From Oscillospiraceae bacterium (lineage in GTDB: Bacteria; Bacillota; Clostridia; Oscillospirales; Ruminococcaceae), in NCBI GenBank assembly GCA_018434245.1, contig JAHDPQ010000005.1:1-40629 (forward strand): DNA of 40,629 nucleotides, given 5' to 3'. The translations under genes and the position numbers were made by a program. Position 1 is the stretch's first letter, and each line of letters starts with the position of its first letter. Positions 1,573-14,607 of this stretch are shown here, piece after piece. The notes under the pieces were generated by a model. It was not told the DNA's origin. It saw nothing but the letters and a program-made list of their open reading frames with translations, and did not search any database.

Positions 1573-1615
1573 AAAGGACGGATCAGCCTACCCGGCGATC
1601 CGCCCTTTTCTTTTT
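1573..1615. terminator. Bidirectional terminator between convergent genes
   Basis: AAAGGACGGATC (1573-1584) pairs with GATCCGCCCTTT (1597-1608), with one internal mismatch. It is flanked by a T-rich run on the right (TTTTCTTTTT) and an A-rich run on the left. It would end the regulator transcript on the plus strand and the HAD/mutase operon on the minus strand. It overlaps the stop codon of the minus-strand gene. Confidence 0.75.
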
Positions 1616-2345
1616 AAATCAAAGCTGGAAAAAGATTCAGTAACTGGGGAATCTCATGGATGATGTGGTGGGGCTGGTGGGTTTGACTGGGAGCCTCCTT
1701 GGAGGGCTTATCCTGATCTTGAATCCGCACCATCAGGCCATATCCGGCAGCAAAAGTTCCCTCTACATCCCGCTTGGGGTTGTCGCCGATGTAAGCGCAC
1801 TCGTGGGGCTGGGAACCGATGGCCCGTGCCGCCAGAAGGTAGATGTCGGGGTCGGGTTTGCGTAGCCGTACCTTGGCGGAAAGGATGGTGGTGGTGATGT
1901 AGGGGGAGACGCCATCCTCAATCATCCAGTTGGGGATTTCGTATTCGGTAATGGTATTTGCGATAATTCCCAGTTTGTATCCCCGATTGTGGAGCTGGAC
2001 GATGGTGTCCTTGACGCCGGGACGAGGAACCCTGCGCCCGTCGTGATCCCGCCAGAGCTTGGTAAGCTGGGCGGCGTGGCGGGCAATGTCTGCGTGGGGA
2101 TAATCGGGAAGCAACCACTGGGTCCACAGCTCCATCTCCGAAACATCCAGCAGAGTGGTTTTGGCATTTTTGCGGTAGGCTTTATAGTTTTCTTCCAGTT
2201 CTGCAAAAAACTCCTGGTGAGAGCAGGTGGTGCCTACCAGCTCCATCATTTGCCGCTCTGCGTTGGCCGAAAATTCCGGGTCCTCTACCACCACCCGTAG
2301 GGTGGCACCCACATCAAAAAAGATGGTGTTCACTGTGTTCTTCAT
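1614..2345 (-). CDS. HAD-superfamily hydrolase, paralogue 1 (last gene of the operon)
   Basis: The protein has 243 residues. ATG at 2345 is chosen because AAGGAGGT lies 8 nt upstream; the open frame continues 16 codons further without a site. Motif I is FFDVGATL with nucleophile D11, but the usual second Asp (+2) is Gly13. Motif II reads GIIANTIT, with Ala where Ser/Thr is normal. Motif III Lys is in LRKPDP and motif IV is YIGDNPKRD. A helical cap lies between motifs I and II (about residues 20-95), as in subfamily I HADs. It is clearly homologous to the two other HAD proteins at 3994-4761 and 4786-5559. A phosphatase of a small metabolite is likely. The missing +2 Asp and motif II Ser suggest weak or altered chemistry. 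The substrate is unknown. Confidence 0.85.
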   Translation of the reverse strand: MKNTVNTIFFDVGATLRVVVEDPEFSANAERQMMELVGTTCSHQEFFAELEENYKAYRKNAKTTLLDVSEMELWTQWLLPDYPHADIARHAAQLTKLWRDHDGRRVPRPGVKDTIVQLHNRGYKLGIIANTITEYEIPNWMIEDGVSPYITTTILSAKVRLRKPDPDIYLLAARAIGSQPHECAYIGDNPKRDVEGTFAAGYGLMVRIQDQDKPSKEAPSQTHQPHHIIHEIPQLLNLFPALI

Positions 2346-2402
2346 GCCAAATACCTCCTTTGTTATTATAAGGCTATCTACTGCGACATACATGGCTCCC
2401 TG

Positions 2403-3977
2403 TTAGCGGTAGCGCTTCCCCTTTCCCAACACCATGGACTCGTCGGCCTTTTGCATCTTATGGTAGTTGCCATCCCGGTCCAGAGCAATGCCCCGGCCCA
2501 CACCGTCCACAATGGTTCCAATGCCGATTTTCGCCATCTCAGCGTCCAGCTCCTCCAGCAGAGCAGGAGCGCTTCCCGGCTGGGTGCTGCGGCCATCAAA
2601 AATAATATGTACGTACACCTCCGACAGCCCCGCTTCCTTTGCCATACGCAGCAGGGCCAAGGGATAATCCACCGATCCGTGGGAGCTTTTTTTGGTCAAC
2701 AGGGCCAGCAAATGTAGGGCCCCTCCCCGCTCCATGGCGTTTTGGATGGTCCTGTGGAACACTGGATTCTTCTGGAAGGAGCCGTCCTTCATGGCGGCAT
2801 CCAAGCGAACGTCGTCCTGCATCACCATCCGTCCGGCACCGATATTGATGTGCCCTGCCTCCGAGTTGCCCGCCTTACCTGCCTGCAGGCCCACCGCCTC
2901 CCCGGAGGCCTGCAGCCGGGCCATGGAATAAGCTGACCGCAGATGGTCCCAGTAGGGGGTGTTTGCCACAAAGATGGGGTTGGAGTCGTCCTCTTGGCCA
3001 ATTCCCCAGCCGTCCAGGATGATGAGTAGAACCTTTCGGCCCTCTCCAAACGTCTGCCCCGGCACAAGGCTTTCCCCTGTCATGAGAAGGGGCTGCCGGA
3101 GGCTCAGCACCTGCAAAATTGTAGGGGCTACATCCTGCAGGCTCCCATCCCGGGGATGAAGAGGTGCAACTTTTTGGGGATCGATGAGGAAAAACGGTAC
3201 GGGATTGGTGGTGTGGGCTACATGAGGTTTCCCCTCTTTGCCATAAGCTACCTCCAAATTTCCGTGGTCTGCGGTGATTATTACCACATAGCCCATCTTC
3301 TTGGCAAGCTCCACCACCTCCTCCAGATGCTGGTCCACGCAGGCGGCGCAAGCCACCTTGGCCTGGGTGTTAGAGGTGTGACCGATAACATCGCCATTGG
3401 CAAAATTGGTAACAATAAAGTCGTACCCCTTAGTGATTCCCTCCTTCACCTCTACCGCCACAGCAGGCAAACTTAGCTCGGGCACCGTATCAAAGGGGAC
3501 CCCCTTGGGAGACGACACCCGAAGGTCATCTTCTCCCGGCAGGGTCCGGCTGCTTCCACCATTAAAAAAATACGTAACGTGAGCATATTTTTCCGATTCC
3601 GCCAGATGCAGTTGCTTCATCCCCGCCTCGCTAATGCATTGGGCCAAGGTTTGTTCCACTTGGGTGGGGGCAAAGGCAATGGGCATATCCTTGTATTTTT
3701 CATGGTACATGGTGAGGATGACAAAGTCCAGACCCTTGAGCCTTTCCCGTTGGAAGTGGGGAAACTCCAAAGCGGTAAAGGCGTCGGTCAACTCAATTTC
3801 CCTCTCGCCCCTGCGGCAGCAGAAGATGACGGCATCCCCCGGCTTGATGGTCCCTACCGGTATGCCGGAATCATCCTCCAAGACCAGCGGCTCCATGGAG
3901 TAATCCACCATCCCCTTGTCATAGGATGCCCGAACGGCTTCGGCCAGATTGCTTCCCCCGTGTCCCAAAACAGCCAT
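2403..3977 (-). CDS. Circularly permuted 2,3-bisphosphoglycerate-independent phosphoglycerate mutase-like protein
   Basis: The protein has 524 residues. ATG at 3977 has GGAAAGGAG at good spacing; 13 upstream codons lack a site. All segments of iPGM (alkaline phosphatase superfamily, two metal ions, phosphoserine intermediate) are present, but in the order C-half then N-half. Residues 16-305 match the normal C-terminal part: SYDKGMVDYSMEP, AVIFCCRRGERE, AESEKYAHVTYFFNGG, NFANGDVIGHT, ITADHGN, AHTTNPVPFF, MTGESL. A linker of about 10 residues (306-315) follows. Residues 316-520 match the normal N-terminal part: VLLIILDGWG, GNSEAGHINIGAGR, VHIIFDGRST, GRGIALDRD, DESMVLGKG. The metal-site and nucleophile residues are all kept (D196, H200, D237, H238, H255, D322, S372), as are Arg56, Arg59, K130, H433, R495 and R501. 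The DGRD motif has become DGRS (S464), and the GG before the substrate His is lost. It lies 16 nt after HAD paralogue 2, in one operon. Activity as mutase or as phosphatase is open. Confidence 0.93.
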   Translation of the reverse strand: MAVLGHGGSNLAEAVRASYDKGMVDYSMEPLVLEDDSGIPVGTIKPGDAVIFCCRRGEREIELTDAFTALEFPHFQRERLKGLDFVILTMYHEKYKDMPIAFAPTQVEQTLAQCISEAGMKQLHLAESEKYAHVTYFFNGGSSRTLPGEDDLRVSSPKGVPFDTVPELSLPAVAVEVKEGITKGYDFIVTNFANGDVIGHTSNTQAKVACAACVDQHLEEVVELAKKMGYVVIITADHGNLEVAYGKEGKPHVAHTTNPVPFFLIDPQKVAPLHPRDGSLQDVAPTILQVLSLRQPLLMTGESLVPGQTFGEGRKVLLIILDGWGIGQEDDSNPIFVANTPYWDHLRSAYSMARLQASGEAVGLQAGKAGNSEAGHINIGAGRMVMQDDVRLDAAMKDGSFQKNPVFHRTIQNAMERGGALHLLALLTKKSSHGSVDYPLALLRMAKEAGLSEVYVHIIFDGRSTQPGSAPALLEELDAEMAKIGIGTIVDGVGRGIALDRDGNYHKMQKADESMVLGKGKRYR

Positions 3978-3993
3978 CAGAATTCTCCTTTCC

Positions 3994-4761
3994 TTATTTA
4001 TTTTCGTACGCTGCAAACTCTACGTTGACGTCCGGTACTCCCGGGCAAAGCTCCAGCAACTGGCTAAACCGGAAGATGACGGCATCGGGACGATTAAAGT
4101 CGGTCATTGGTTTGCGGGAAAGGGTTTCGGGGTTGGTGAACAACACGTTGACTCCATACCCCGCCGCCTTGGAGCCGGGAATATCCCGGTTAATATTGTC
4201 CCCCACAAAGGCGATTTGCTCTTCGGGGAGTCCTGCCTGCCGGGCTGCCAGATGGAAAATCTCCACTCCTGGCTTGCGCAGACCGCAGACGCAGGAAAGA
4301 AGCACCGGGTCAAAATACCGGCCCATCCCCGACTCCTCCAACCAATCCGGGACCTCTTCGGAGGTAATGAGGTTGGAGATGATGCCCAGACGATAGCCCC
4401 GCTTGTGGAGGGTATCAATCACCTGTTGGCCGTTGGGCACCACCAGCCGCTTGCCCGAGCACTGCCGGTACTGAAAGGCCATGTCCACCGCATGTTTTAA
4501 CACATGATCCCGGTCGTATTCCGGAAGCAGCCACTTGGTAAACAGCTCGGCCTCCGTTGCCTCCCGCTGGGTGCGAAAACACCACTTGCGGTAGCCTTCG
4601 TAGCGGTCGTCGATCATTTCCAGAAACTCATCAGGAGAAAGATGGGTGCCCGCCAGCCGGGCAAACTCCCTTTTCCCCGCCTCCTGATGCTCGGGAATCT
4701 TATGTAGAATCCGCAGAGTGTTTCCTAAGTCAAAAAAGATGGCTTTGATCGTCGTGTTCAT
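3994..4761 (-). CDS. HAD-superfamily hydrolase, paralogue 2
   Basis: The protein has 255 residues, with ATG at 4761 behind GGAGGAAAGG. Motif I is FFDLGNTL (D11, Gly13 at the usual second Asp). Motif II is GIISNLIT, motif III GLRKPG and motif IV FVGDNINRD. The cap region (about residues 20-100) includes PEHQEAGKREFARLAGT, very like paralogue 3 (PEHRRRAKEQAVELLGL). It is likely a cytoplasmic phosphatase or phosphonatase-like hydrolase acting on a small phosphorylated molecule; the specific substrate cannot be read from sequence. It starts 24 nt after the stop of paralogue 3 and ends 16 nt before the permuted mutase, so the genes are surely cotranscribed. Three adjacent paralogues suggest either stepwise dephosphorylation of related metabolites or a hetero-oligomer. 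Confidence 0.87.
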   Translation of the reverse strand: MNTTIKAIFFDLGNTLRILHKIPEHQEAGKREFARLAGTHLSPDEFLEMIDDRYEGYRKWCFRTQREATEAELFTKWLLPEYDRDHVLKHAVDMAFQYRQCSGKRLVVPNGQQVIDTLHKRGYRLGIISNLITSEEVPDWLEESGMGRYFDPVLLSCVCGLRKPGVEIFHLAARQAGLPEEQIAFVGDNINRDIPGSKAAGYGVNVLFTNPETLSRKPMTDFNRPDAVIFRFSQLLELCPGVPDVNVEFAAYENK

Positions 4762-4785: not shown

Positions 4786-5559
4786 CTAGGTGTTGATTTC
4801 TGCCAAATACTCCGGCGGAACCTGTGCCTGCGGTGCGACCGGAAACAGCTCCAACAGGTCCCGGCAGCCGCTGATGATGGCGTGAGGCCGGGTTTCTTCG
4901 GTAAAGTCCCGGGGTAAAGTCCCCTTGTGATCCACCAGAATCCGCATGCCAAATCCCGAGTGATAGGCCCCTCCCATATCCCGCTCGGCGTTATCGCCTA
5001 TGTAGGCGCACTGCCGGGCAGGCACAGGAATTTGATCCAAAGCAATCTGAAAAATCTGAGGGTCGGGCTTGCGAATACCGGTGTGAGAGGAAAGCACCAC
5101 CGGATGAAAATAAGGGGTGAAGCCGTCTTCCTCCAACCAGTCGGGCAGCTCCCGGGATGTAATGACATTGGATATAATCCCCAGCTTGTAGCCTCTGCGG
5201 GTCAGCTCCTGCACCACCTCCATGGCACCGTCCACCGTCACCCGATATCCCTTAAATTGCCGGAACAAAAAGGTGAGCTCCACAGCATGGGGGACCACCA
5301 ACCCGGGGTCCAGCTCGGGAACAAGCCACCGGGTCCACAGCTCCTCCTCTGATAGCTCCACCCAATCTTTGGTGGCGTGGTTGCGGTACTCCTCGTACCG
5401 GTCATTGATTTTTCGGGCAAAGGCTTCCGGGTCTTCGGTCAGACCCAAAAGCTCTACCGCCTGCTCCTTGGCTCTGCGCCGATGCTCGGGAATATCGGTG
5501 GTGATGCGCAGGGTGTCCCCTACATCAAAAAAGATGTGCTCAATGGTAAAACCCCTCAT
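4786..5559 (-). CDS. HAD-superfamily hydrolase, paralogue 3 (first gene of the operon)
   Basis: The protein has 257 residues, with ATG at 5559 preceded by GAGGAGG. Motif I is FFDVGDTL (D12; the +2 position is Gly14). Motif II is GIISNVIT, motif III GIRKPDP and motif IV YIGDNAERD. The set is complete apart from the general acid/base Asp, which is also missing in the other two copies. Phosphonoacetaldehyde hydrolase likewise replaces this Asp (with Ala), so phosphonate-type substrates deserve thought, though a Gly here also occurs in many uncharacterised HAD proteins. It is the first gene after the minus-strand promoter and operator at 5612-5663. The leader is short, about 70 nt. Confidence 0.87.
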   Translation of the reverse strand: MRGFTIEHIFFDVGDTLRITTDIPEHRRRAKEQAVELLGLTEDPEAFARKINDRYEEYRNHATKDWVELSEEELWTRWLVPELDPGLVVPHAVELTFLFRQFKGYRVTVDGAMEVVQELTRRGYKLGIISNVITSRELPDWLEEDGFTPYFHPVVLSSHTGIRKPDPQIFQIALDQIPVPARQCAYIGDNAERDMGGAYHSGFGMRILVDHKGTLPRDFTEETRPHAIISGCRDLLELFPVAPQAQVPPEYLAEINT

Positions 5560-5611: not shown

Positions 5612-5663
5612 CGCAAACGTTTTCGTTATTTGCATTATACAACATTGTGCTTTTTGTTGTCAA
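5612..5663 (-). promoter_or_regulatory. Promoter and LacI-type operator of the HAD/mutase operon
   Basis: Read on the minus strand, TTGACA (5658-5663) and TATAAT (5634-5639) are 18 bp apart. A palindrome-like site (plus strand CGCAAACGTTTTCG, 5612-5625) lies just downstream of the -10, overlapping the start region. The central AAACGTTT with CG flanks is typical of LacI/GalR-family operators. Repression by steric block is the obvious mode. The regulator itself is not in the window. Confidence 0.8.
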
Positions 5664-5798: not shown

Positions 5799-5824
5799 TT
5801 TATCTGCATGTGAGGTGATGTTTG

Positions 5825-7537
5825 GTGGGGGCTATAGGTGCTTACATAAAACCTTACCGGATGCGGATTGCTCTAGGGCTGATCATCAAGTTTTTAGGGA
5901 CCCTGATGGACCTGATCATCCCATGGCTGCTGGCTTATATTGTGGATACCCTCATGCCGACCAGGAATGTTCCCTTGATTCTGAAGGCGGGAGGGCTGAT
6001 GGCATTCTGCTCGGTAATTGCCTTTACCTTTAACGTAAAGGCAAACCGGATGGCCGCCGCCACCACTCGGGATATCACCAAAAAGCTGCGATATGATTTG
6101 TTTGAGCACATCCTGTTTTTGCCCGCCGACAAACGGGACAGCTTTTCCGCTTCCTCCCTTATCTCCCGGCTTTCTACCGATACCTACAACGTCCATCAGT
6201 TGGTGGAGCGATCCCAACGAGTTGGTATCCGCGCCCCCTTGCTGATGCTGGGAGGCATGCTCTTTACCTTTCAGCTGGAGCCCCATCTGGCCACGGTGCT
6301 GCTGCTTCTGGTTCCCCTGCTTTCTCTGGTGATTTGGCACATCACCCGCAAGGGCATTCCCCTTTATGCCAATGTTACCGAAAAAATAGACGATTTGGTT
6401 CGGGTGGTGCGGGAAAGCTCCATTGGAATCCGGGTGATTAAGGCTCTTTCCAAAACCGATTGGGAGGTTTCCCGTTTTGAAAAGGTCAACCAACAGGTCC
6501 GGCAGGCAGAAACCTCCGCAGGACTGATGATCTCCCTTATCGCCCCGGCCATGACCTTTCTGCTCAACACCGGGTTTATGCTGGTAATTTTGCTGGGGGC
6601 CTTCCGCATCAATGCCGGACAGACCCAGCCGGGAAAAATCATGGCTTTTCTCTCCTACTTCACCATCATTCTCAACGCAGTGCTTTCCATTCGTAAGATT
6701 TTTATCCTCTGGTCCACGGGCGGTGCTTCGGCTCAGCGAATCAACAAAGTGATGGGCACCCCTGTGGGAATGCCTTTATGTGAACCGGATCATGTGGACA
6801 ACGGGCTCCATATTTCCTGCGAGAGCATATCTTTTTCCTACAATAAGGCCCTCAACGATCTGGAGAATATCAGCTTCGCCCTCAAACGGGGGGAAACTCT
6901 TGGAATCATCGGCCCAACCGGAGGTGGAAAAACCACCCTTATCAGCCTGTGCATGCGCTTTTATGATGTAGATGACGGTCGCATCCGCATCGACGGAGAA
7001 GATCTGCGGAGCATTCCCCTTCACCAGTTGCGACTGCGGTTTGGGGCGGTATTCCAAAATGATGTGCTGTTGGCCGACACCATCTACGAGAACATCTCCT
7101 TTTTGCGGGATATTCCCAGAAAAGATGTGGAAAAGGCGGCTCGCACCGCCCAAATTGCCGATTTTATCGAGAGCCTCCCCCAAGGCTACGACACCCGGCT
7201 GGATATACGGGGCTCCAACCTCAGCGGCGGTCAAAAGCAGCGCCTTCTCATCGCCCGGGCGCTGGCAGCCAACCCGGAAATTCTGGTACTGGATGATGCG
7301 CAAAGCGCTTTGGACTATAGAACTGACGCCGCCCTGCGTAAGGCCATTGGGCAGGAGTATGCAAACACTACCATGGTGATTGTCAGCCAGCGGATCAGCG
7401 CAATTTGGGGGGCCGATCACATCCTGCTGCTGGAGGAGGGTCGTCTGGTGGATTCCGGCACTCATCAGGAGTTGGTGGAGCGGTGCAATGATTACCGCAA
7501 AATTGTCCGGGTTCAGATGGGAGGTGCCACCCTGTGA
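5825..7537 (+). CDS. ABC exporter half-transporter, subunit with degenerate ATPase site
   Basis: The protein has about 570 residues: six membrane helices (residues about 10-300), then a nucleotide-binding domain. GTG at 5825 is preferred because GAGGTG at 5812-5817 then has 7-nt spacing; TTG at 5822 is one codon earlier. Walker A is GPTGGGKTT (about 363-371) and the signature is LSGGQKQR (about 466). Walker B is ILVLDDAQSALD, so the catalytic Glu is Asp, while the signature is canonical. The partner gene shows the reverse. This is the asymmetry of heterodimeric exporters such as BmrCD and TM287/288. It overlaps the partner by GTGA. The substrate is unknown: drug, lipid, peptide, or a product of the neighbouring pathway. 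The operator upstream links it to the HAD/mutase and importer operons. Confidence 0.9.
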   Translation: MGAIGAYIKPYRMRIALGLIIKFLGTLMDLIIPWLLAYIVDTLMPTRNVPLILKAGGLMAFCSVIAFTFNVKANRMAAATTRDITKKLRYDLFEHILFLPADKRDSFSASSLISRLSTDTYNVHQLVERSQRVGIRAPLLMLGGMLFTFQLEPHLATVLLLLVPLLSLVIWHITRKGIPLYANVTEKIDDLVRVVRESSIGIRVIKALSKTDWEVSRFEKVNQQVRQAETSAGLMISLIAPAMTFLLNTGFMLVILLGAFRINAGQTQPGKIMAFLSYFTIILNAVLSIRKIFILWSTGGASAQRINKVMGTPVGMPLCEPDHVDNGLHISCESISFSYNKALNDLENISFALKRGETLGIIGPTGGGKTTLISLCMRFYDVDDGRIRIDGEDLRSIPLHQLRLRFGAVFQNDVLLADTIYENISFLRDIPRKDVEKAARTAQIADFIESLPQGYDTRLDIRGSNLSGGQKQRLLIARALAANPEILVLDDAQSALDYRTDAALRKAIGQEYANTTMVIVSQRISAIWGADHILLLEEGRLVDSGTHQELVERCNDYRKIVRVQMGGATL

Positions 7538-9297
7538 AAAAGCCTTCCAAAACCAAGGTGCTGCCTGTCCTCCGACGGTTCTGGCAGTATCTTGCCCGGC
7601 GGAGAATGGTGATCGCCGCTGCCTTTGTGGTGATGATCGCCTCCAACCTTTTGGCTCTGGTGGTTCCTTTGCTGTCGGGAGCAGCCATCGATGCCATTGG
7701 GACCAAGGCAGGCAGCGTAAATTTCCCCGCCGTGTTTTACAACTGCACCCTCATGCTGGTTTGTTACGGAGCCTCGGCGGTACTCTCCTACCTGCTCTCC
7801 CTCATCCTCATCCGCCTGAGTCAGACAATTGCCGGATGCTTGCGGCAGGACATCTTTGAGAATCTGATGCAGCTTCCCGTTTCCTATTTTGACACTCACC
7901 CGGTGGGGGACATTATCAGCTGCATTTGCTACGATGTGGATACCATCGGCACTTCTCTGTCCACCGACCTAATTCAAATTTCAAGCAGCGTGGTGACGGT
8001 GCTGGGCTCCCTTGTCATGCTGCTGATCCTCTCCCCCGCCCTATCGGTGGTGGTGCTGGTTAGCGTCCCCGTCACCACCTTTGTCTCCCGCTGGCAGATG
8101 AAGCGGATGCATCCCCTGTTCCGCAGGCGCTCCAAGAAGCTGGGGGAGCTGGGAAGCCTGATTGAGGAAAGCATATCGGCAGGACGAGCGGTCAGCACCT
8201 ACAGCTGTGAAGATGCTATGCTCCGCCGTTTCAAGAACAAAAACAACGAGGCTATGGATGCCTTTTATCTAGCCGATGCCAAAAGCGTTCTGTTGGGCCC
8301 TATGGTCAACTTTATCAACAACATTTCGCTGGCCTTTGGCAGCGTGATGGGGGCTATTCTTTGTCTCTCCAGACGGCTCACACTGGGCGCAGTCTCCTCC
8401 TTCATCCTCTACTCCCGCAAGTTTTCCAGCCCCATTCGGGAGGCCGCCAATATTGTCAGCGAAATTCAGGGCGCTGCTGCCGCCGCCGAACGGGTTTTTC
8501 GCCTGATCGATGCCCAGCCCGAGCTCCCCGACCGTGAAAACGCTCTTTCCCTCCCTGCGGTGGAGGGTCACATCGGGCTGGAGGACATCTCGTTTTCCTA
8601 CACCAAGGAAAAGGAGATACTCCGCGGCATCACCCTTGATGTGCCCAAGGGCAGCATTGTTGCCATTGTAGGGCCCACCGGTGCGGGAAAAACCACCATC
8701 GTCAATCTTCTTATGCGGTTTTACGATGTGCAGTCAGGCAAAATTACCGTAGACGGCACCGATATTCGCGATATGGTGCGCCGGGATCTGCGGATGTCCT
8801 ACGCCATGGTGCTCCAGGACAGTTGGCTCTTTTCCGGCACTGTGTACGAGAATATTGCCTACGGAAACGAAAACGCCACCCGGGAACAGGTGATCGCGGC
8901 TGCCAAAGCCGCCAAAATTCACAAGCATATTTTGTCACTGCCTCAGGGGTACGATACCCCATTGGAGGATGGCGGCGAGAACTTTTCCAAGGGACAGCGT
9001 CAGCTGCTGACCATTGCCAGAGCCATGCTGATTGACGCCAACATGCTGATTCTGGACGAAGCTACTTCCAACGTGGATTCCAACACCGAGCTGGAAATCA
9101 ACGAGGCCATGCAGTGTTTGATGAAGGACAAAACCTGTTTTGTCATTGCCCACCGCCTTTCCACCATCGAAAACGCCGATCTGATTTTGGTGATGGATCA
9201 AGGCCGCCTGGCCGAGCAGGGAACCCACCATGAATTGTTACAGAATGGTGATATTTACTATAAATTATATTGCTCACAATTTAAAATATATAAATAA
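7534..9297 (+). CDS. ABC exporter half-transporter, catalytic subunit
   Basis: The protein has 587 residues with a GTG start overlapping the stop of the previous gene (GTGA). Six membrane helices precede a nucleotide-binding domain. Walker A is GPTGAGKTT (about 380-388). The signature is divergent (FSKGQRQ, about 484). Walker B is canonical (MLILDEATSNVD) and the H-loop is present (IAHRLSTIE). Paired with the preceding subunit it makes a heterodimer with one consensus and one degenerate ATP site. The gene ends four bases before the -35 of the importer promoter, and no clear terminator is visible between them, so some read-through into the importer operon is possible. Confidence 0.92.
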   Translation: MKKPSKTKVLPVLRRFWQYLARRRMVIAAAFVVMIASNLLALVVPLLSGAAIDAIGTKAGSVNFPAVFYNCTLMLVCYGASAVLSYLLSLILIRLSQTIAGCLRQDIFENLMQLPVSYFDTHPVGDIISCICYDVDTIGTSLSTDLIQISSSVVTVLGSLVMLLILSPALSVVVLVSVPVTTFVSRWQMKRMHPLFRRRSKKLGELGSLIEESISAGRAVSTYSCEDAMLRRFKNKNNEAMDAFYLADAKSVLLGPMVNFINNISLAFGSVMGAILCLSRRLTLGAVSSFILYSRKFSSPIREAANIVSEIQGAAAAAERVFRLIDAQPELPDRENALSLPAVEGHIGLEDISFSYTKEKEILRGITLDVPKGSIVAIVGPTGAGKTTIVNLLMRFYDVQSGKITVDGTDIRDMVRRDLRMSYAMVLQDSWLFSGTVYENIAYGNENATREQVIAAAKAAKIHKHILSLPQGYDTPLEDGGENFSKGQRQLLTIARAMLIDANMLILDEATSNVDSNTELEINEAMQCLMKDKTCFVIAHRLSTIENADLILVMDQGRLAEQGTHHELLQNGDIYYKLYCSQFKIYK

Positions 9298-9300
9298 CAT

Positions 9301-9399
9301 TTGACAAATCCCAAATAGTATTCTATAATATAGCATAGTGCGCAAACGTTTACGAAGTCGCAAGTATTTCTTTTTGCTTTGTCTTCGCAAACGTTGTCG
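9301..9399 (+). promoter_or_regulatory. Consensus promoter with two LacI-type operators, importer operon
   Basis: TTGACA (9301-9306) and TATAAT (9324-9329) are 17 bp apart, a textbook sigma-A promoter. Two operator-like sites follow: CGCAAACGTTTACG (9341-9354) and CGCAAACGTTGTCG (9386-9399), centred 45 bp apart. The first overlaps the start region; the second could allow cooperative binding or looping. The rest of the gap, to 9611, is a leader of about 210 nt. I see no convincing gene there; open frames in it overlap the operators and have no ribosome binding site. Confidence 0.85.
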
Positions 9400-9611
9400 A
9401 AAAGTGGATCTCTTAAAGTTGGCCAAGTCGGCCGAATTAGGGTATTCTTCCACCGCTATGAACGCGGGAACGTAAAGTCCTGCCCGGTGCAGTTCGGCAA
9501 AGCTCGGCTCCTTCTTCGGGAAGCTGTTGCAGAGTTCATTCCACCTGAAACACAGGGTTATGATACAGGGGATATGTTGTGGCAAATCTATCACAAGAAA
9601 GAGGTGTTGGT

Positions 9612-11435
9612 GTGGCAAAACCAAAGCGAAAACCACTCACAGGGAAGCGGCTTCGGAATCTTGTATTGAATGTGGTCACCAATCCATTCAACATGATTGT
9701 GTTCATCTCCCTTATTGTTCTAATCTGCCTCATCATCATTCCCCTGTTGCAGATGGTGCAGACTACCTTTACCTTGGCTCAAAGCGAGTTGCGGCGGGTA
9801 GATGGTCAGGTGGGAGACTTTACCCTTTACTACTGGAAGCAGTTGTTTGCCAGCAATCTTTCTTCGGCGCTGCTGTGGCAGCCTCTGCGCAACTCGCTGC
9901 TGGTGGGTATTATCACCGCAGTCATCTCGGTACCTTTGGGGTCTCTCCTGGCTTGGTTGATGGTTCGCTCCGACCTGCCGGGTAAGGACTTTATCGGGAT
10001 GCTCATCATCATTCCCTACATGATTCCCTCCTGGTGCAAGTCCATGTCCTGGCTTGCCATGTTCCGCAACTCCCGCAGCGGCTCCCCAGGATTTTTGTGC
10101 GGCCTTGGGATTCCTATTCCCGACTGGCTGGCCTACGGTCCCATCGCCATCATTCTGGTGATGACCCTGCATTATTATGCCTTCTCCTACATAATGGTTT
10201 CCTCCTCCCTGCGCTCGGTCAACTCGGAGCTGGAGGAGATGGGGGAAATTCAGGGAGCCAGCAAAACACAGATTTTACGGTATATCACTCTGCCGCTGGT
10301 GACTCCGGCCGTTCTCTCCTCCACCATCATGACCTTGTCCAAGGCGGTAGGCTCCTTTGGCGTAGCGGCCAATCTGGGGATGAGAATCGGATACTTTACC
10401 CTTTCTACCAAAATGCACGACGCCATCAACAATCGGCAGGCAGGCTTTGGTTATGCCATGGCAATTCTGCTAATTGTGATGGCATCCGGTACCATATTTG
10501 CCAACCAGCGAATGGTGGGAACCCGCAAATCCTACGAAACCATGGGGGGCAAGGGGACCAAGCACACCCCCATGCCCTTGGGGAAGGCCAAGAAACCCTT
10601 GCTTATCTTTTTAGCTGTTTTTCTGCTGTTAGCTATGGTTCTGCCTATGTTGATTTTAATTTTGGAAACCTTCCAGGTCAGTACCGGCGGCGGCTACGGA
10701 CGCGACAACCTTACCCTTTACAACTGGATCGGTGAGCTGGACCTTGAAAGTCGCGTCAGCCATGTCCCGGGTATCTTCCGCAATCCCGATTTTACCAATG
10801 CCCTTGCCAACACCATTAAGCTGACCATCGTCTCTTCCATCATCACCGCCTTTTCGGGGCAGTTTCTGGGTTACATTAGCTCCCGGGGACGGGGAAAATG
10901 GTATGGAAAAGCCACCGAGCAACTGGTGTTTGTGCCCTATTTGATGCCGGCCATCGCCTTTTCCGCCATTTATTTGTCCATGTGGAGCGTGCCGCGGCTG
11001 GGAGGGCTAATCCCTTCCCTATACGGAACTTTTACCATTCTGGTACTGGCCAGTGTGGTCAAGCACTTCCCCTTTGCCAGCCGGGCAGGAACCGCCAACA
11101 TGCTCCAGATTGGCGTGGAGCTGGAAGAAGCTGCCGATATTGCGGGAGCCAGCTTTTGGCGGCGGATGGCAAGTATTATCATCCCCCTGGCCAAGCAGGG
11201 ATTCATTTCCGGATTTATGCTGGTGTTCATCAGCATTGCGAAAGAGCTGGATCTGATTATTCTCCTCATCACCCCCCAGAACCGCACCCTTTCCTATCTT
11301 GCCTATACCTATAATAAGGACGCCCTGCCCCAGATGGCAGACGCGGTTTCGGTTTGTGTGCTGGCTTTTGTACTGCTGTGCTATTGGATTGCCTACAAGT
11401 TCTTTGGCGCAGATATTGGCAAGAGCTGGGGTTAA
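9612..11435 (+). CDS. ABC importer permease, two fused membrane domains (AfuB/FbpB/PhnUV-like)
   Basis: The protein has about 607 residues. GTG at 9612 is chosen because AAAGAGGTG ends 5 nt upstream; the open frame extends 11 codons further. Two binding-protein-dependent permease domains lie in tandem, about 12 helices in all. Each carries an EAA-type loop that docks the ATPase: EEMGEIQGASKTQILRYITL in the first half and EEAADIAGASFWRRMASIII in the second. Fused permeases of this shape serve iron(III), thiamine, 2-aminoethylphosphonate and hexose-phosphate uptake. The next genes supply the ATPase and binding protein, so the importer is complete. Its link to phosphate-handling enzymes makes a phosphorylated or phosphonate ligand likelier than iron, but that is inference. 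Confidence 0.92.
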   Translation: MAKPKRKPLTGKRLRNLVLNVVTNPFNMIVFISLIVLICLIIIPLLQMVQTTFTLAQSELRRVDGQVGDFTLYYWKQLFASNLSSALLWQPLRNSLLVGIITAVISVPLGSLLAWLMVRSDLPGKDFIGMLIIIPYMIPSWCKSMSWLAMFRNSRSGSPGFLCGLGIPIPDWLAYGPIAIILVMTLHYYAFSYIMVSSSLRSVNSELEEMGEIQGASKTQILRYITLPLVTPAVLSSTIMTLSKAVGSFGVAANLGMRIGYFTLSTKMHDAINNRQAGFGYAMAILLIVMASGTIFANQRMVGTRKSYETMGGKGTKHTPMPLGKAKKPLLIFLAVFLLLAMVLPMLILILETFQVSTGGGYGRDNLTLYNWIGELDLESRVSHVPGIFRNPDFTNALANTIKLTIVSSIITAFSGQFLGYISSRGRGKWYGKATEQLVFVPYLMPAIAFSAIYLSMWSVPRLGGLIPSLYGTFTILVLASVVKHFPFASRAGTANMLQIGVELEEAADIAGASFWRRMASIIIPLAKQGFISGFMLVFISIAKELDLIILLITPQNRTLSYLAYTYNKDALPQMADAVSVCVLAFVLLCYWIAYKFFGADIGKSWG

Positions 11436-11475
11436 GCGGAGCATCCTGAATGACGAATACGGAAGGATTCTGATT

Positions 11476-12594
11476 ATGAGTAGAATAGAGCTTATTAATA
11501 TCGATAAATTTTATGGAGACAACCACGTGCTCAAGGACATCAACCTTGTGATTGAGGACGGCGACTTTATGACTTTGCTGGGGCCTTCCGGCTGCGGAAA
11601 AACTACCACTCTGCGGGTGGTGTCCGGGCTGGAAAAACCTCAGAACGGCAGGATGTTGATGGACGGCCGGGAGGTAATTAACTGCGACGATGCCTACTAC
11701 GAAGAGCCCAGCAAGCGGGGCCTGAATCTGGTCTTTCAAAGCTACGCTCTCTGGCCTCATATGACAGTGTACAAAAACGTTGCCTTTGGCTTGAAAATCA
11801 AGAAGATGCCCCCTCAGGACATTGAAGATAAGGTAATGAATGCCCTAAAGCTAATGCGGATCGACGAGCTTTCCCACCGGTATCCCAACGAGCTTTCCGG
11901 TGGTCAGCAGCAGCGTGTGGCCATCGCCCGGGCCATCGCTTCCGATCCTAAGCTGCTGCTGTTGGATGAGCCGCTGTCCAACCTAGATGCCAAGCTGCGC
12001 ATCGACATGCGCTCCGAGCTCAAGCGGCTGCACAACGAAATGGGAACTACCATCATTTATGTCACCCATGATCAGGTGGAGGCTCTGACCATGTCCACCA
12101 AAATCGCCCTTTTCCACGAAGGCGTCCTCACTCAGGTGGCGCCCCCCATGGAGCTTTATATGAACCCCATCGATCTGCAGGCTGCCGACTTTATTGGGAA
12201 CCCCCGCATCAATTTCATTCAGGCTACTGGCAAAATCGCAGGCGGCAGACTTCATGTGGTTTCCGATCTGGGCAGCTACGTCTATGAAAGCGAACATCTC
12301 ACCGATGAGCCCATGCCGGAAGGGGATTTTTCCTGCGTGATCGGACTTCGCCCCGAGCAGGTGTGCATCGAAACTGAGCCCTTTGAAGGGGCCATCGAAG
12401 CCAGTATTTACGCCAGTCAGCCTGCGGGTTCCGAAACTCTGGTGACCCTTTCAGTGGGCAGGCAGGAGTTTTTGGCAAAGCAGATCGGTCTGGCCGAATA
12501 CAACATCAATCAAAAAGTGTACCTACGCATTGATCCCAACAAGATGAATGTCTATAACGAGAAAAGCACACGGTTGATCAAGCTTGCGGTCTAA
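11476..12594 (+). CDS. ABC importer ATPase (PotA/FbpC/AfuC-like)
   Basis: The protein has 372 residues. ATG at 11476 has GGAAGGA about 9 nt upstream, and the family's standard opening (RIELINIDKFYGDNHVLKDI) starts there. A longer open frame reaching back into the permease gene is ignored. Walker A is GPSGCGKTT (about 36-44), the signature LSGGQQQR (about 141-148), Walker B LLLLDEPLSNLD and the H-loop VTHD. A C-terminal TOBE-like regulatory domain follows (residues about 240-372). The length is normal for the family. It energises the fused permease upstream and sits 40 nt after it. Confidence 0.93.
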   Translation: MSRIELINIDKFYGDNHVLKDINLVIEDGDFMTLLGPSGCGKTTTLRVVSGLEKPQNGRMLMDGREVINCDDAYYEEPSKRGLNLVFQSYALWPHMTVYKNVAFGLKIKKMPPQDIEDKVMNALKLMRIDELSHRYPNELSGGQQQRVAIARAIASDPKLLLLDEPLSNLDAKLRIDMRSELKRLHNEMGTTIIYVTHDQVEALTMSTKIALFHEGVLTQVAPPMELYMNPIDLQAADFIGNPRINFIQATGKIAGGRLHVVSDLGSYVYESEHLTDEPMPEGDFSCVIGLRPEQVCIETEPFEGAIEASIYASQPAGSETLVTLSVGRQEFLAKQIGLAEYNINQKVYLRIDPNKMNVYNEKSTRLIKLAV

Positions 12595-12655: not shown

Positions 12656-13948
12656 ATGAAAAAGACTCTGGCATTATGTCTGGTTGCACTGATGTGCTGC
12701 ACTGTCCTATTCGGATGTCAAAGCGCTTCTCCTGCCCCGGCGTCAAGCCCCGATTCCGCCGCTCCCAACTCTGCCGCCCCCGCCCCGGCTTCCAGCAGCT
12801 CCGATGCTCCCGCTGCCGAAGCGATCAGCGAAGACGACAAGTGGAACGACATGACCGACGAAGAGCTATACGAGCTAGCCAAGCAAGAAGGCGGGGAAAT
12901 TACCATCTACGCCATCACCAGCCGTATGCCCAAAACCTGTGAAGCTTTTATGGAAGCTTACCCTGAACTAAAGGCTGTATCCACCGACTTTGACCAAAAC
13001 GAAGCAGTTTCCAAAATTGAAATTGAAGCCAAGAGCAACAACGTAAACGCCGATATTCTACAGTGCAAAGACAGTGCGGGAGAAATCTACTACGACTTCT
13101 TCCCTTCCGGGTATCTGGAAACCTATTACCCCAGCGATATCTGCTCCACCATCGACCCCGAGTTGCTGAAGTACGGTATGCCCTTTTATGTGGGGCTCAA
13201 CTTCTGGTACTATAATACTGCAATACATGATTCCGCCCCTGTGAGCAACTGGTGGCAGATTATCGAAAAAGATGAAAGTGGCAACAACAAATTCAATCTG
13301 GTTTTTCAAAACCCCTCTGGAAATGACACCTATATGGCTCTGTATTGTAACATGATTCTTTTAGCTGAAGAAATGGCAAAGGCGTACGAGCAGACCTACG
13401 GCAAGCCGCTGGAATATACCTACGACGCTTCTAAAACTCCCGGCGTGCCCGAAAACAATGCCGGTTATGAATTCCTATACCGTCTGAGCCAATGTAAGCT
13501 CACCTTTATCAATGATGGAGACGACATTGTAGAGGCAGTTCATGCCAGTAGTACAACAGGCATAGACACCTTAGGCTTTGCCTCTGCCGGTAAAATTACC
13601 AACCGGGACGAAAACGGCTGGGATATTGAATGGGTGGACGATTTGGACCCCTTCCTCAACGTCATGAATGCCAACTATCTCTACCTGGTCAAGGGGTGCG
13701 ACAACCCCGCAGGCGCTCGTCTCTTTATCCGCTTCCTGATGGGCGGTGCAGAAGGCGGAGGCCCCGGATTTAAGCCCTTCACCAAAGAAGGTAACTGGTC
13801 TGTTCGCAGCGACTATACCAACCCCAACAACCCCTTTGCAGCCAGCGAAGTCAAAAGCATTCCTACCGATATTGAAGGCGTTTACGGCATCTTCTTAGAT
13901 GCCAAGGATTTCTGGGACTACTGGCTGGCCAAAAGCCCTATGAAATAA
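12656..13948 (+). CDS. Extracellular solute-binding lipoprotein of the AfuABC/FbpABC-type importer
   Basis: The protein has 430 residues, with ATG at 12656 behind AAAGGGG. A lipoprotein signal peptide ends in the lipobox LFGC (Cys21). A Ser/Pro/Ala-rich linker of about 40 residues tethers the domain to the membrane. The body matches the class that binds iron, polyamines or phosphorylated compounds: GGEITIYAITSRMPKTCEAF, then YPELKAV and a negatively charged ligand-cleft region. Its ligand cannot be assigned by eye. No clear Tyr-Tyr iron-binding pair stands out. Related AfuA proteins bind hexose phosphates, and PhnS binds 2-aminoethylphosphonate. It is followed by a stem-loop and then a small membrane protein gene. 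Confidence 0.88.
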   Translation: MKKTLALCLVALMCCTVLFGCQSASPAPASSPDSAAPNSAAPAPASSSSDAPAAEAISEDDKWNDMTDEELYELAKQEGGEITIYAITSRMPKTCEAFMEAYPELKAVSTDFDQNEAVSKIEIEAKSNNVNADILQCKDSAGEIYYDFFPSGYLETYYPSDICSTIDPELLKYGMPFYVGLNFWYYNTAIHDSAPVSNWWQIIEKDESGNNKFNLVFQNPSGNDTYMALYCNMILLAEEMAKAYEQTYGKPLEYTYDASKTPGVPENNAGYEFLYRLSQCKLTFINDGDDIVEAVHASSTTGIDTLGFASAGKITNRDENGWDIEWVDDLDPFLNVMNANYLYLVKGCDNPAGARLFIRFLMGGAEGGGPGFKPFTKEGNWSVRSDYTNPNNPFAASEVKSIPTDIEGVYGIFLDAKDFWDYWLAKSPMK

Positions 13949-14037: not shown

Positions 14038-14607
14038 ATGATGGCAATGGCTCAAACTCCTCAGATACCCCCAACCGAACTGGAACGGCAGCAGCGGTGG
14101 AAGCAGAGGGGGGATGCCTTTTGGGGCATCTTCCTCCCCACCAAAAACGGAAAAGTCAAGAGTACCCTTGTGCTGAACAGCTTTTGCCTTTCCATTTTGT
14201 TTTTGGCTGTTTACGCCATGGCTTACCTCCTTCTTCTGGACGGTCTGGACGCTTTTTTGGCGGGAAAGGTTTCTCTCTTCTGGATCAATGTTCTGGAGAG
14301 CTTGATTCCCGCTTTGGTCGGCACCTTTGTCTGCAATGTCCTACACTTTATCTTTGCCGAAAAGCGACTTGTGCCCGCCGCCTTTGTCTGGTTGCTGTTA
14401 TACGCCGTTGCCGTCACCGCCTATCTGCTGGCCTGCTCCCCCGCAGAGGCTCGGGGCACCACCCTCAAGCTGTTGATGATGGTGGTTCCCCCTTGCGTCT
14501 TATCGGGATGTGCGCTTTCTGCCTTTTTGTATCTGCGTCACCGGAAGCTGCACCCGCCGAGCAAGCCCATGGAAGAGCTTCCCCCTTGGAAGCAAAACCG
14601 GCGCTGA
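14038..14607 (+). CDS. Small four-helix membrane protein of unknown function
   Basis: The protein has 189 residues (ATG at 14038, or 187 from ATG at 14044; the ribosome site is weak). There are four hydrophobic stretches, at about residues 45-65, 75-105, 112-132 and 145-168, between a charged N-terminus and a Lys/Pro-rich tail. I do not recognise the family. It is the last gene of the importer operon, before a strong terminator. It could be an accessory subunit of the importer or an unrelated passenger. Confidence 0.7.
   Translation: MMAMAQTPQIPPTELERQQRWKQRGDAFWGIFLPTKNGKVKSTLVLNSFCLSILFLAVYAMAYLLLLDGLDAFLAGKVSLFWINVLESLIPALVGTFVCNVLHFIFAEKRLVPAAFVWLLLYAVAVTAYLLACSPAEARGTTLKLLMMVVPPCVLSGCALSAFLYLRHRKLHPPSKPMEELPPWKQNRR

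Follow-up and report, generated by a model that had tools for sequence, protein, structure and literature searches.

The locus described here raises the question of what an apparent phosphoglycerate mutase does when its two halves stand in exchanged order and one of its active-site residues has been replaced, and whether such a protein is a singular case or belongs to a family of its own. The gene lies in a stretch of 40,629 nucleotides from an Oscillospiraceae bacterium, which is referred to below as the window. Its product is referred to as cpPGM (Table 1).

The window gene encodes a circularly permuted iPGM homologue

The open reading frame with its own ribosome site was present as originally predicted, and it runs on the minus strand, which the prediction had not named, from an ATG at position 3977 to a stop at position 2403. 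When the product was compared with PDB sequences by phmmer, residues 13 to 305 matched residues 218 to 509 of Geobacillus iPGM (1EJJ; E-value 5e-59), and residues 315 to 524 matched residues 5 to 214 of the same protein (E-value 4.9e-44), so that homology extends over nearly the full length. These findings confirm that the window protein is a circularly permuted iPGM homologue, the break lying in the substrate domain between positions 214 and 218 of iPGM. Both the exchange of the halves within one reading frame and the new ends in the middle of the substrate-binding domain are as had been proposed. A linker of approximately nine residues connects MTGESL, the former C-terminus, with KVLLIILDGWG; approximately 10 had been estimated earlier.

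The structure predicted for the window cpPGM was confident (pLDDT 94.2, pTM 0.86), and the core fold and metal ligands of the alkaline phosphatase superfamily, which includes phosphopentomutase and other relatives of the protein, were found in cpPGM. The confident model is in line with the expected iPGM fold; superposition reached only residues 4 to 307 approximately, because sequential aligners require the same order and halt at half of cpPGM, as expected of a permutation.

Against the family model TIGR01307 the window cpPGM scored 468.5 bits (cut-off 330.65), matched in two stretches, and against NF003897 it scored 367.5 bits, below the cut-off of 862. Since the TIGR01307 cut-off was passed, a name taken from that model would be that of ordinary GpmI. 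The standard family model thus accepts the branch with swapped halves under the ordinary name, and genomes may carry misleading annotation.

Table 1. Features of the window around the cpPGM gene and the importer genes
Feature	Position	Strand	Basis
HAD hydrolase, motif I FDVGATL; true start probably inside the listed ORF	1614..2393	-	Pfam, sequence
cpPGM, circularly permuted iPGM-like protein, 524 aa	2403..3977	-	ORF, profile and PDB matches, family alignment, model
cpPGM residues 315-524, equal to iPGM 5-214 (Asp12/Ser62 side and first substrate-domain half; Ser464 at Asp154)	2406..3035	-	PDB match, alignment
cpPGM linker, residues 306-314, old C-terminus to old N-terminus	3036..3062	-	PDB match, family alignment
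cpPGM residues 1-305, with 13-305 equal to iPGM 218-509 (second substrate-domain half and metal site 1 side)	3063..3977	-	PDB match, fold comparison
Ribosome site AGGAGA of cpPGM	3984..3989	-	sequence
HAD hydrolase, motif I FDLGNTL	3994..4761	-	Pfam, sequence
HAD hydrolase, motif I FDVGDTL (D-x-G)	4786..5559	-	Pfam, sequence
Promoter-like site (12/12) before HAD-HAD-cpPGM-HAD	5634..5663	-	consensus match only
Promoter-like site (12/12) before importer	9301..9329	+	consensus match only
ABC importer permease, two BPD_transp_1 stretches	9579..11435	+	best NCBIfam PhnU2 and molybdate permease, all below cut-off
Importer ATPase; start picked by eye in ORF 11299-12594	11476..12594	+	cluster relatives
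Solute-binding protein, sbp18 cluster	12656..13948	+	cluster relatives
Small membrane protein; in L159-L161 and other loci, relatives come after the binding protein	14038..14607	+	cluster relatives

cpPGM belongs to a two-branch family

A scan of species genomes gave 92 relatives, from which 80 loci were retained (the permA branch), and in 76 of these the permuted order was found in one near full-length open reading frame. Three of the exceptions end at contig ends (L059, L078 and L079) and one is split into two open reading frames (L082). By record titles, permA carriers belong to Bacillota, Chloroflexota and spirochaetes. A second branch, permB, was found in at least 11 other genomes among 398 genomes of the window's phylum (the window's own included), and a further permB-type copy in genome G078 is 37% identical to a family representative and has DGRS. 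Identity of permB proteins to the window protein was approximately 42%; the median was 42% for permB and also 42% for normal proteins, the 20 normal proteins compared ranging from 38 to 43%. The junction and the linker (six to nine residues) were similar in permA and permB (21 proteins compared).

In the usual iPGM order Asp12 and Ser62 come first and the stretch from Asp403 to His462 last; this order was swapped in all 88 full-length permuted proteins aligned. The alignment leaves out truncated or split proteins (L059, L078, L079, L082 and L097), doubles (L001-L004) and the G078 copy. Homologues with the same half order, which the original prediction had proposed to look for, thus number 87 besides the window protein, and chance is excluded by them. 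When 32 permuted proteins were placed in a tree with 20 normal ones in rotated form, the two sets were split with support of 100/100, the root not being fixed by the tree; that all 32 permuted proteins fall on one side of this branch fits one origin. These findings show that cpPGM is not a singular case but a member of a widespread family of two branches, with a common junction, that occurs in many anaerobic bacteria and is paralogous to conventional phosphoglycerate mutase.

Within the window's genome, a second permuted copy (59% identity) was found along with a normal GpmI. This second copy (L085:6488-8056, on contig C8 of genome G000) stands in an operon of the order binding protein, ATPase, permease, ATPase and cpPGM, and a HAD relative was not found in the L085 stretch. 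The complete chromosome of [Clostridium] asparagiforme contains two permuted copies and one normal gene. Two separate genes or the normal order at the window locus, or a model lacking the iPGM fold, were not seen; this chromosome and the confident model both side with the original prediction. One of the C. asparagiforme copies (L134:9189-14982) lies, by eye, head to head with genes for an RpiR-like regulator and a TctCBA-like transporter.

An assembly artefact or a gene fusion was rejected in view of the 76 of 80 loci in which a single, nearly full-length frame has this order, and an artefact is also countered by the complete chromosome with its two permuted copies. A mobile-element origin was likewise rejected: among the listed plasmid (15 rows, 44 records) and phage (10 rows, 22 records) protein matches no permuted order was found, each match falling in two pieces, as the ordinary GpmI order gives.

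The active site is retained except for Asp154

Fifteen positions of iPGM (D12, S62, H123, R153, D154, R185, R191, R261, R264, K336, D403, H407, D444, H445 and H462 in 1EJJ) were compared, which we take to be the catalytic ones. Thirteen of them were invariant in all 88 permuted proteins, and R191 was kept in 87. The invariant set comprises the serine nucleophile with the two-metal ligands (D12, S62, D403, H407, D444, H445 and H462) and the phosphoglycerate-site residues H123, R153, R185, R261, R264 and K336. In contrast, Asp154 was replaced by Ser in 88 of 88 permuted proteins, and all 20 normal proteins compared have Asp there. The alignment bears out in the window protein what had been read from its sequence: Ser372 as nucleophile, both metal sites and the Arg, Lys and His set are retained, the second Asp of DGRD is Ser464, and the GG near the substrate His is lost (GGVH in iPGM, KSSH in this protein). 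Other fixed differences between permuted and normal proteins were E231Y, N259C, A265E, T334S, G121S, S124G and M189L, and Asn447 was Leu in 10 of 10 permB proteins. The list of metal ligands agrees with the triads named in the available text of PMC5382265.

Because the nucleophile, the metals and the Arg/Lys cradle are kept, a phosphoserine intermediate is probably still formed from a small anionic phosphoester. Ser464 in place of Asp154, together with several other changed residues, suggests that the reaction is probably not the exchange of 2- and 3-phosphoglycerate, and our best guess is the changed substrate or phosphatase-like reaction at which the original prediction had hinted. In iPGM, Asp154 presumably lies close to the substrate's free hydroxyl. 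A substrate that carries a second phosphate, or that offers no free second hydroxyl, would be compatible with the loss of Asp154 and with the changes around it. Since all the phosphate- and carboxylate-binding Arg and Lys residues checked are kept, mutase activity is possible.

Most carriers have another phosphoglycerate mutase

A normal GpmI was present in 13 of 18 carrier genomes. Among the other five, G399 has a dPGM, G405 and G406 have both dPGM and apgM, and G414 has apgM; in G409 (1.0 Mb) no mutase scored over the cut-off and one match lay under it. With another phosphoglycerate mutase in 17 of the 18 carriers, the cpPGM gene is accessory, and its being a replacement of the glycolytic enzyme is unsupported. 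In 50 further carrier genomes, where GpmI alone was sought, it was found in 37 (in some as a fragment only) and not in 13. Three permB genomes without GpmI among the matches listed (G049, G123 and G385) have apgM. The normal GpmI gene was located within approximately 3 kb of another PGK gene in seven of eight carrier genomes (L164-L170), and no PGK was seen near the normal GpmI of the window's own genome (L086).

Neighbouring genes point to an import-linked module

In the window, the HAD-HAD-cpPGM-HAD run has gaps of 24, 16 and 9 bases, and all three HAD genes matched PF13419 and PF00702 over the cut-off. HAD neighbours of the family depart from the motif I pattern D-x-D-x-T: the second Asp was Gly in all 224 motifs recognised among 300 HAD-like open reading frames (76 without a recognised motif, overlapping loci being counted twice). 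The window binding protein did not match any Pfam or NCBIfam model or any PDB sequence. Two ABC exporter-like half-transporters (5822-9297), noticed by eye, separate the HAD/cpPGM run from the importer, and a BTAD-type transcriptional regulator (PF03704, 328-1560) adjoins the run.

Within 5 kb of the 80 permA loci, relatives of HAD were found in 73, LacI in 53, IolG in 30, PfkB in 27, type II GAPDH in 26, PGK in 23, LarA in 16, the transketolase halves in 16 and 15, and the importer permease in 10, these counts resting on BLAST to cluster representatives and depending on contig ends. An archaeal-type iPGM was found in 3 of the 80. Permeases of one family were present in 16 of 30 wider, hand-picked loci (18 of the 30 overlap the 80). 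Further upstream in six rumen-type genomes, the permease was present in four (L159-L162, L161 continuing the already counted L126) and was not seen in L157 and L158. A metallo-beta-lactamase-like gene of approximately 316 aa follows the importer, by eye, in L159 (5862-6812) and L160 (3124-4071). Taken together, the surrounding genes suggest a module tied to import and not glycolysis.

The rumen clostridia (L125-L129) have a tight run of four HAD genes, cpPGM, IolG, type II GAPDH, PGK, in some a transketolase, and LarA. The split transketolase was found in L125, L126 and L128, and a divergent LacI gene precedes the run in L126-L129. This operon, and the 14 of 15 catalytic positions that are kept, would be explained if cpPGM were a second phosphoglycerate mutase, converting 2- to 3-phosphoglycerate in an operon that resembles lower glycolysis and has a type II GAPDH and a PGK of its own. 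Such a role is unlikely, given that Asp154 is lost throughout the family and that most carriers already have a normal GpmI. The importer and the HAD hydrolases would also be out of place in lower glycolysis, and importer-type loci such as L085, L117, L135 and L137 were without a GAPDH or PGK relative.

The inositol genes IolG and IolE of the rumen-type clusters suggest an inositol-linked substrate there, and they speak most strongly against a single substrate for the whole family. A little less probable than a second mutase is that cpPGM generally dephosphorylates inositol phosphates taken up by the cell, such as those derived from phytate, working with the tandem HAD hydrolases ahead of the Iol pathway. 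The phosphoglycerate-site residues are kept except for Asp154, no IolG relative was found in the permB and importer-type loci, and the link to cyclic 2,3-diphosphoglycerate (cDPG) synthetase described below has no place in this scheme, which draws instead on the IolG relatives in 30 of 80 permA loci (by BLAST, so that other Gfo/Idh proteins may be included). IolG exceeded the NCBIfam cut-off in L047 and IolE in L125; by eye, an IolE-like protein was seen in L126, and the importer of L162 adjoins IolE-, IolB- and IolD-like genes and an IolG relative.

permB genes in operons with cyclic 2,3-diphosphoglycerate synthetase

Four permB loci (L116, L117, L118 and L123) have the order GntR, synthetase, binding protein, permease, ATPase and cpPGM. 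The synthetase of L117 matched cDPG synthetase (8ORK) with an E-value of 1.3e-133 and keeps E45, K46, K145, R146, K149, T150, D208, E305, E404 and K406 (Methanothermus fervidus numbering), the catalytic residues of the M. fervidus enzyme being named in the available text of PMC10690619. The synthetase was found in 8 of 398 genomes (L116, L117, L118, L123 and L152-L155), each time in an importer/cpPGM operon as far as the contigs reach. Four sequence motifs were present in all eight proteins (one of the four had served to select them), TMCE was absent in one, and the exact TELKAAAVD was absent in three. The run from synthetase to cpPGM was contiguous in six of the eight; in G273 two contigs share it, and in G319 the sequence breaks off within the ATPase gene at the contig end. 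Five of the eight showed a GntR gene ahead of the synthetase operon, and the one scanned was a GntR/UTRA regulator. An uptake operon typically has such a regulator ahead of an importer.

The cpPGM gene was found in 7 of the 8 synthetase genomes compared to 6 of the 390 others (Fisher p 4.6e-11, G319 counted as lacking it), a value that is optimistic because of the shared ancestry of the genomes. NF003259 (PRK04220), which we take to represent 2-phosphoglycerate kinase, matched none of the eight synthetase genomes, two of which were less than 90% complete, and matched the control, Methanocaldococcus jannaschii. The synthetase was absent from the window's genome, from all 18 genomes examined by way of permA loci and from 5 of the 11 permB genomes. 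In the permB loci of four of these five (L119-L122) no importer was seen either. A phosphosugar mutase-like gene lies near the permB copy in these four loci, and L120 also has a RapZ-like gene (by eye).

Proposed function

The importer, together with the cDPG synthetase, PGK and apgM neighbours, indicates phosphoglycerate chemistry and therefore favours 2,3-bisphosphoglycerate, imported itself or as cDPG, as the substrate that we infer. We put at roughly 40% the probability that cpPGM works through a phosphoserine on imported esters of the phosphoglycerate kind, with 2,3-bisphosphoglycerate as a plausible substrate. Against it stand the genomes without synthetase (the window's own, the 18 of permA and 5 of 11 of permB), the scarcity of the importer permease near permA loci (10 of 80, and none seen further upstream in L157 and L158), the permB loci L119-L122, the inositol genes of the rumen-type clusters, the kept Arg and Lys residues and the window binding protein, whose sequence has no counterpart in the PDB. 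Phosphoglycerate-type organophosphates would enter through the AfuABC/PhnSTU-like ABC transporter, with cpPGM as the cytoplasmic enzyme of the module. As in iPGM, Ser372 would be phosphorylated by the substrate at the two-metal site, and one phosphate of a more anionic compound would probably be removed or transferred; the most likely case is conversion of 2,3-bisphosphoglycerate to 2- or 3-phosphoglycerate for glycolysis. In the window's branch, the tandem HAD hydrolases may complete the dephosphorylation.

According to the available text of PMC10690619, 2,3-bisphosphoglycerate is the substrate of cDPG synthetase and only hyperthermophilic methanogens contain cDPG; according to PMC1224877 (in part), it also builds up in Methanobrevibacter smithii. 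The same source describes the M. fervidus synthetase as reversible and able to make ATP, and that of Methanothermobacter as apparently irreversible. The presence of cDPG in M. smithii and the reversible M. fervidus enzyme would make feeding on cDPG plausible in gut and digester. The fuller scenario, in which gut, rumen and digester bacteria scavenge cDPG (or 2,3-bisphosphoglycerate) of methanogens through the importer, regain ATP by the reversed synthetase and use the Asp154Ser cpPGM as a bisphosphoglycerate phosphohydrolase or phosphotransferase, is doubtful, its chances being slightly better than those of a second mutase. If the substrate reading is true, it would give bacteria a route to feed on a methanogen osmolyte in gut and rumen.

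The synthetase branch might also run in reverse, with cpPGM forming 2,3-bisphosphoglycerate through transfer of a phosphoryl group from one phosphoglycerate to another and the synthetase then producing cDPG as a solute. This is improbable, more so than the inositol phosphate scheme, and the importer and the GntR gene ahead of the operon in five of eight cases, an uptake-operon pattern, tell against it; consistent with it are the use of 2,3-bisphosphoglycerate by the synthetase (PMC10690619, in part) and the kinase result of none in eight synthetase genomes. Least probable is action of cpPGM on an imported phosphonate such as phosphonopyruvate, a reading suggested by importer parts that score to the 2-aminoethylphosphonate models phnS2 and PhnU2 and by a GntR protein of L117 that scores to PhnF, all under the cut-off, and opposed by the cDPG synthetase and PGK links and by the neighbourhoods, in which no phosphonate enzyme was noticed (no dedicated search being made).

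Comparison with known systems

Both halves of cpPGM are homologous to iPGM/GpmI (1EJJ, TIGR01307), with the serine nucleophile, the metal sites and most substrate residues in common. In contrast to that enzyme, cpPGM has its halves swapped, Ser at Asp154 and the other fixed changes, and it occurs in an accessory, often import-linked context. No description of a permuted iPGM was found in titles and abstracts of the open-licence literature, in line with the original prediction, which knew of none, and 'permut' is absent from the available text of a survey of iPGM in 702 genomes (PMC2964296). A fixed permutation combined with a fixed active-site swap offers a natural experiment on the iPGM mechanism.

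The L117 partner is clearly cDPG synthetase (8ORK, 8ORU and 9SXB), its catalytic residues being kept. It differs from the known enzymes, for which the literature found covers archaea, in that the gene is bacterial and lies beside an importer, with 2-phosphoglycerate kinase in none of the eight genomes. A bacterial cDPG uptake system was not found in titles and abstracts of the open-licence literature.

AfuABC is a sugar-phosphate importer (PMC4546632, in part; PDB 4R72-4R75). The binding protein of L117 was nearest to AfuA (E-value 3e-19) and to a pyridoxal-phosphate binder. When sugar-binding residues of AfuA were compared (from the set His205, Asp206 and Glu229), His205-Asp206 faced Leu-Asp in L117, where the alignment is weak. 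The L117 system differs from AfuABC in its neighbouring genes and perhaps also in the residue that faces the sugar-binding His.
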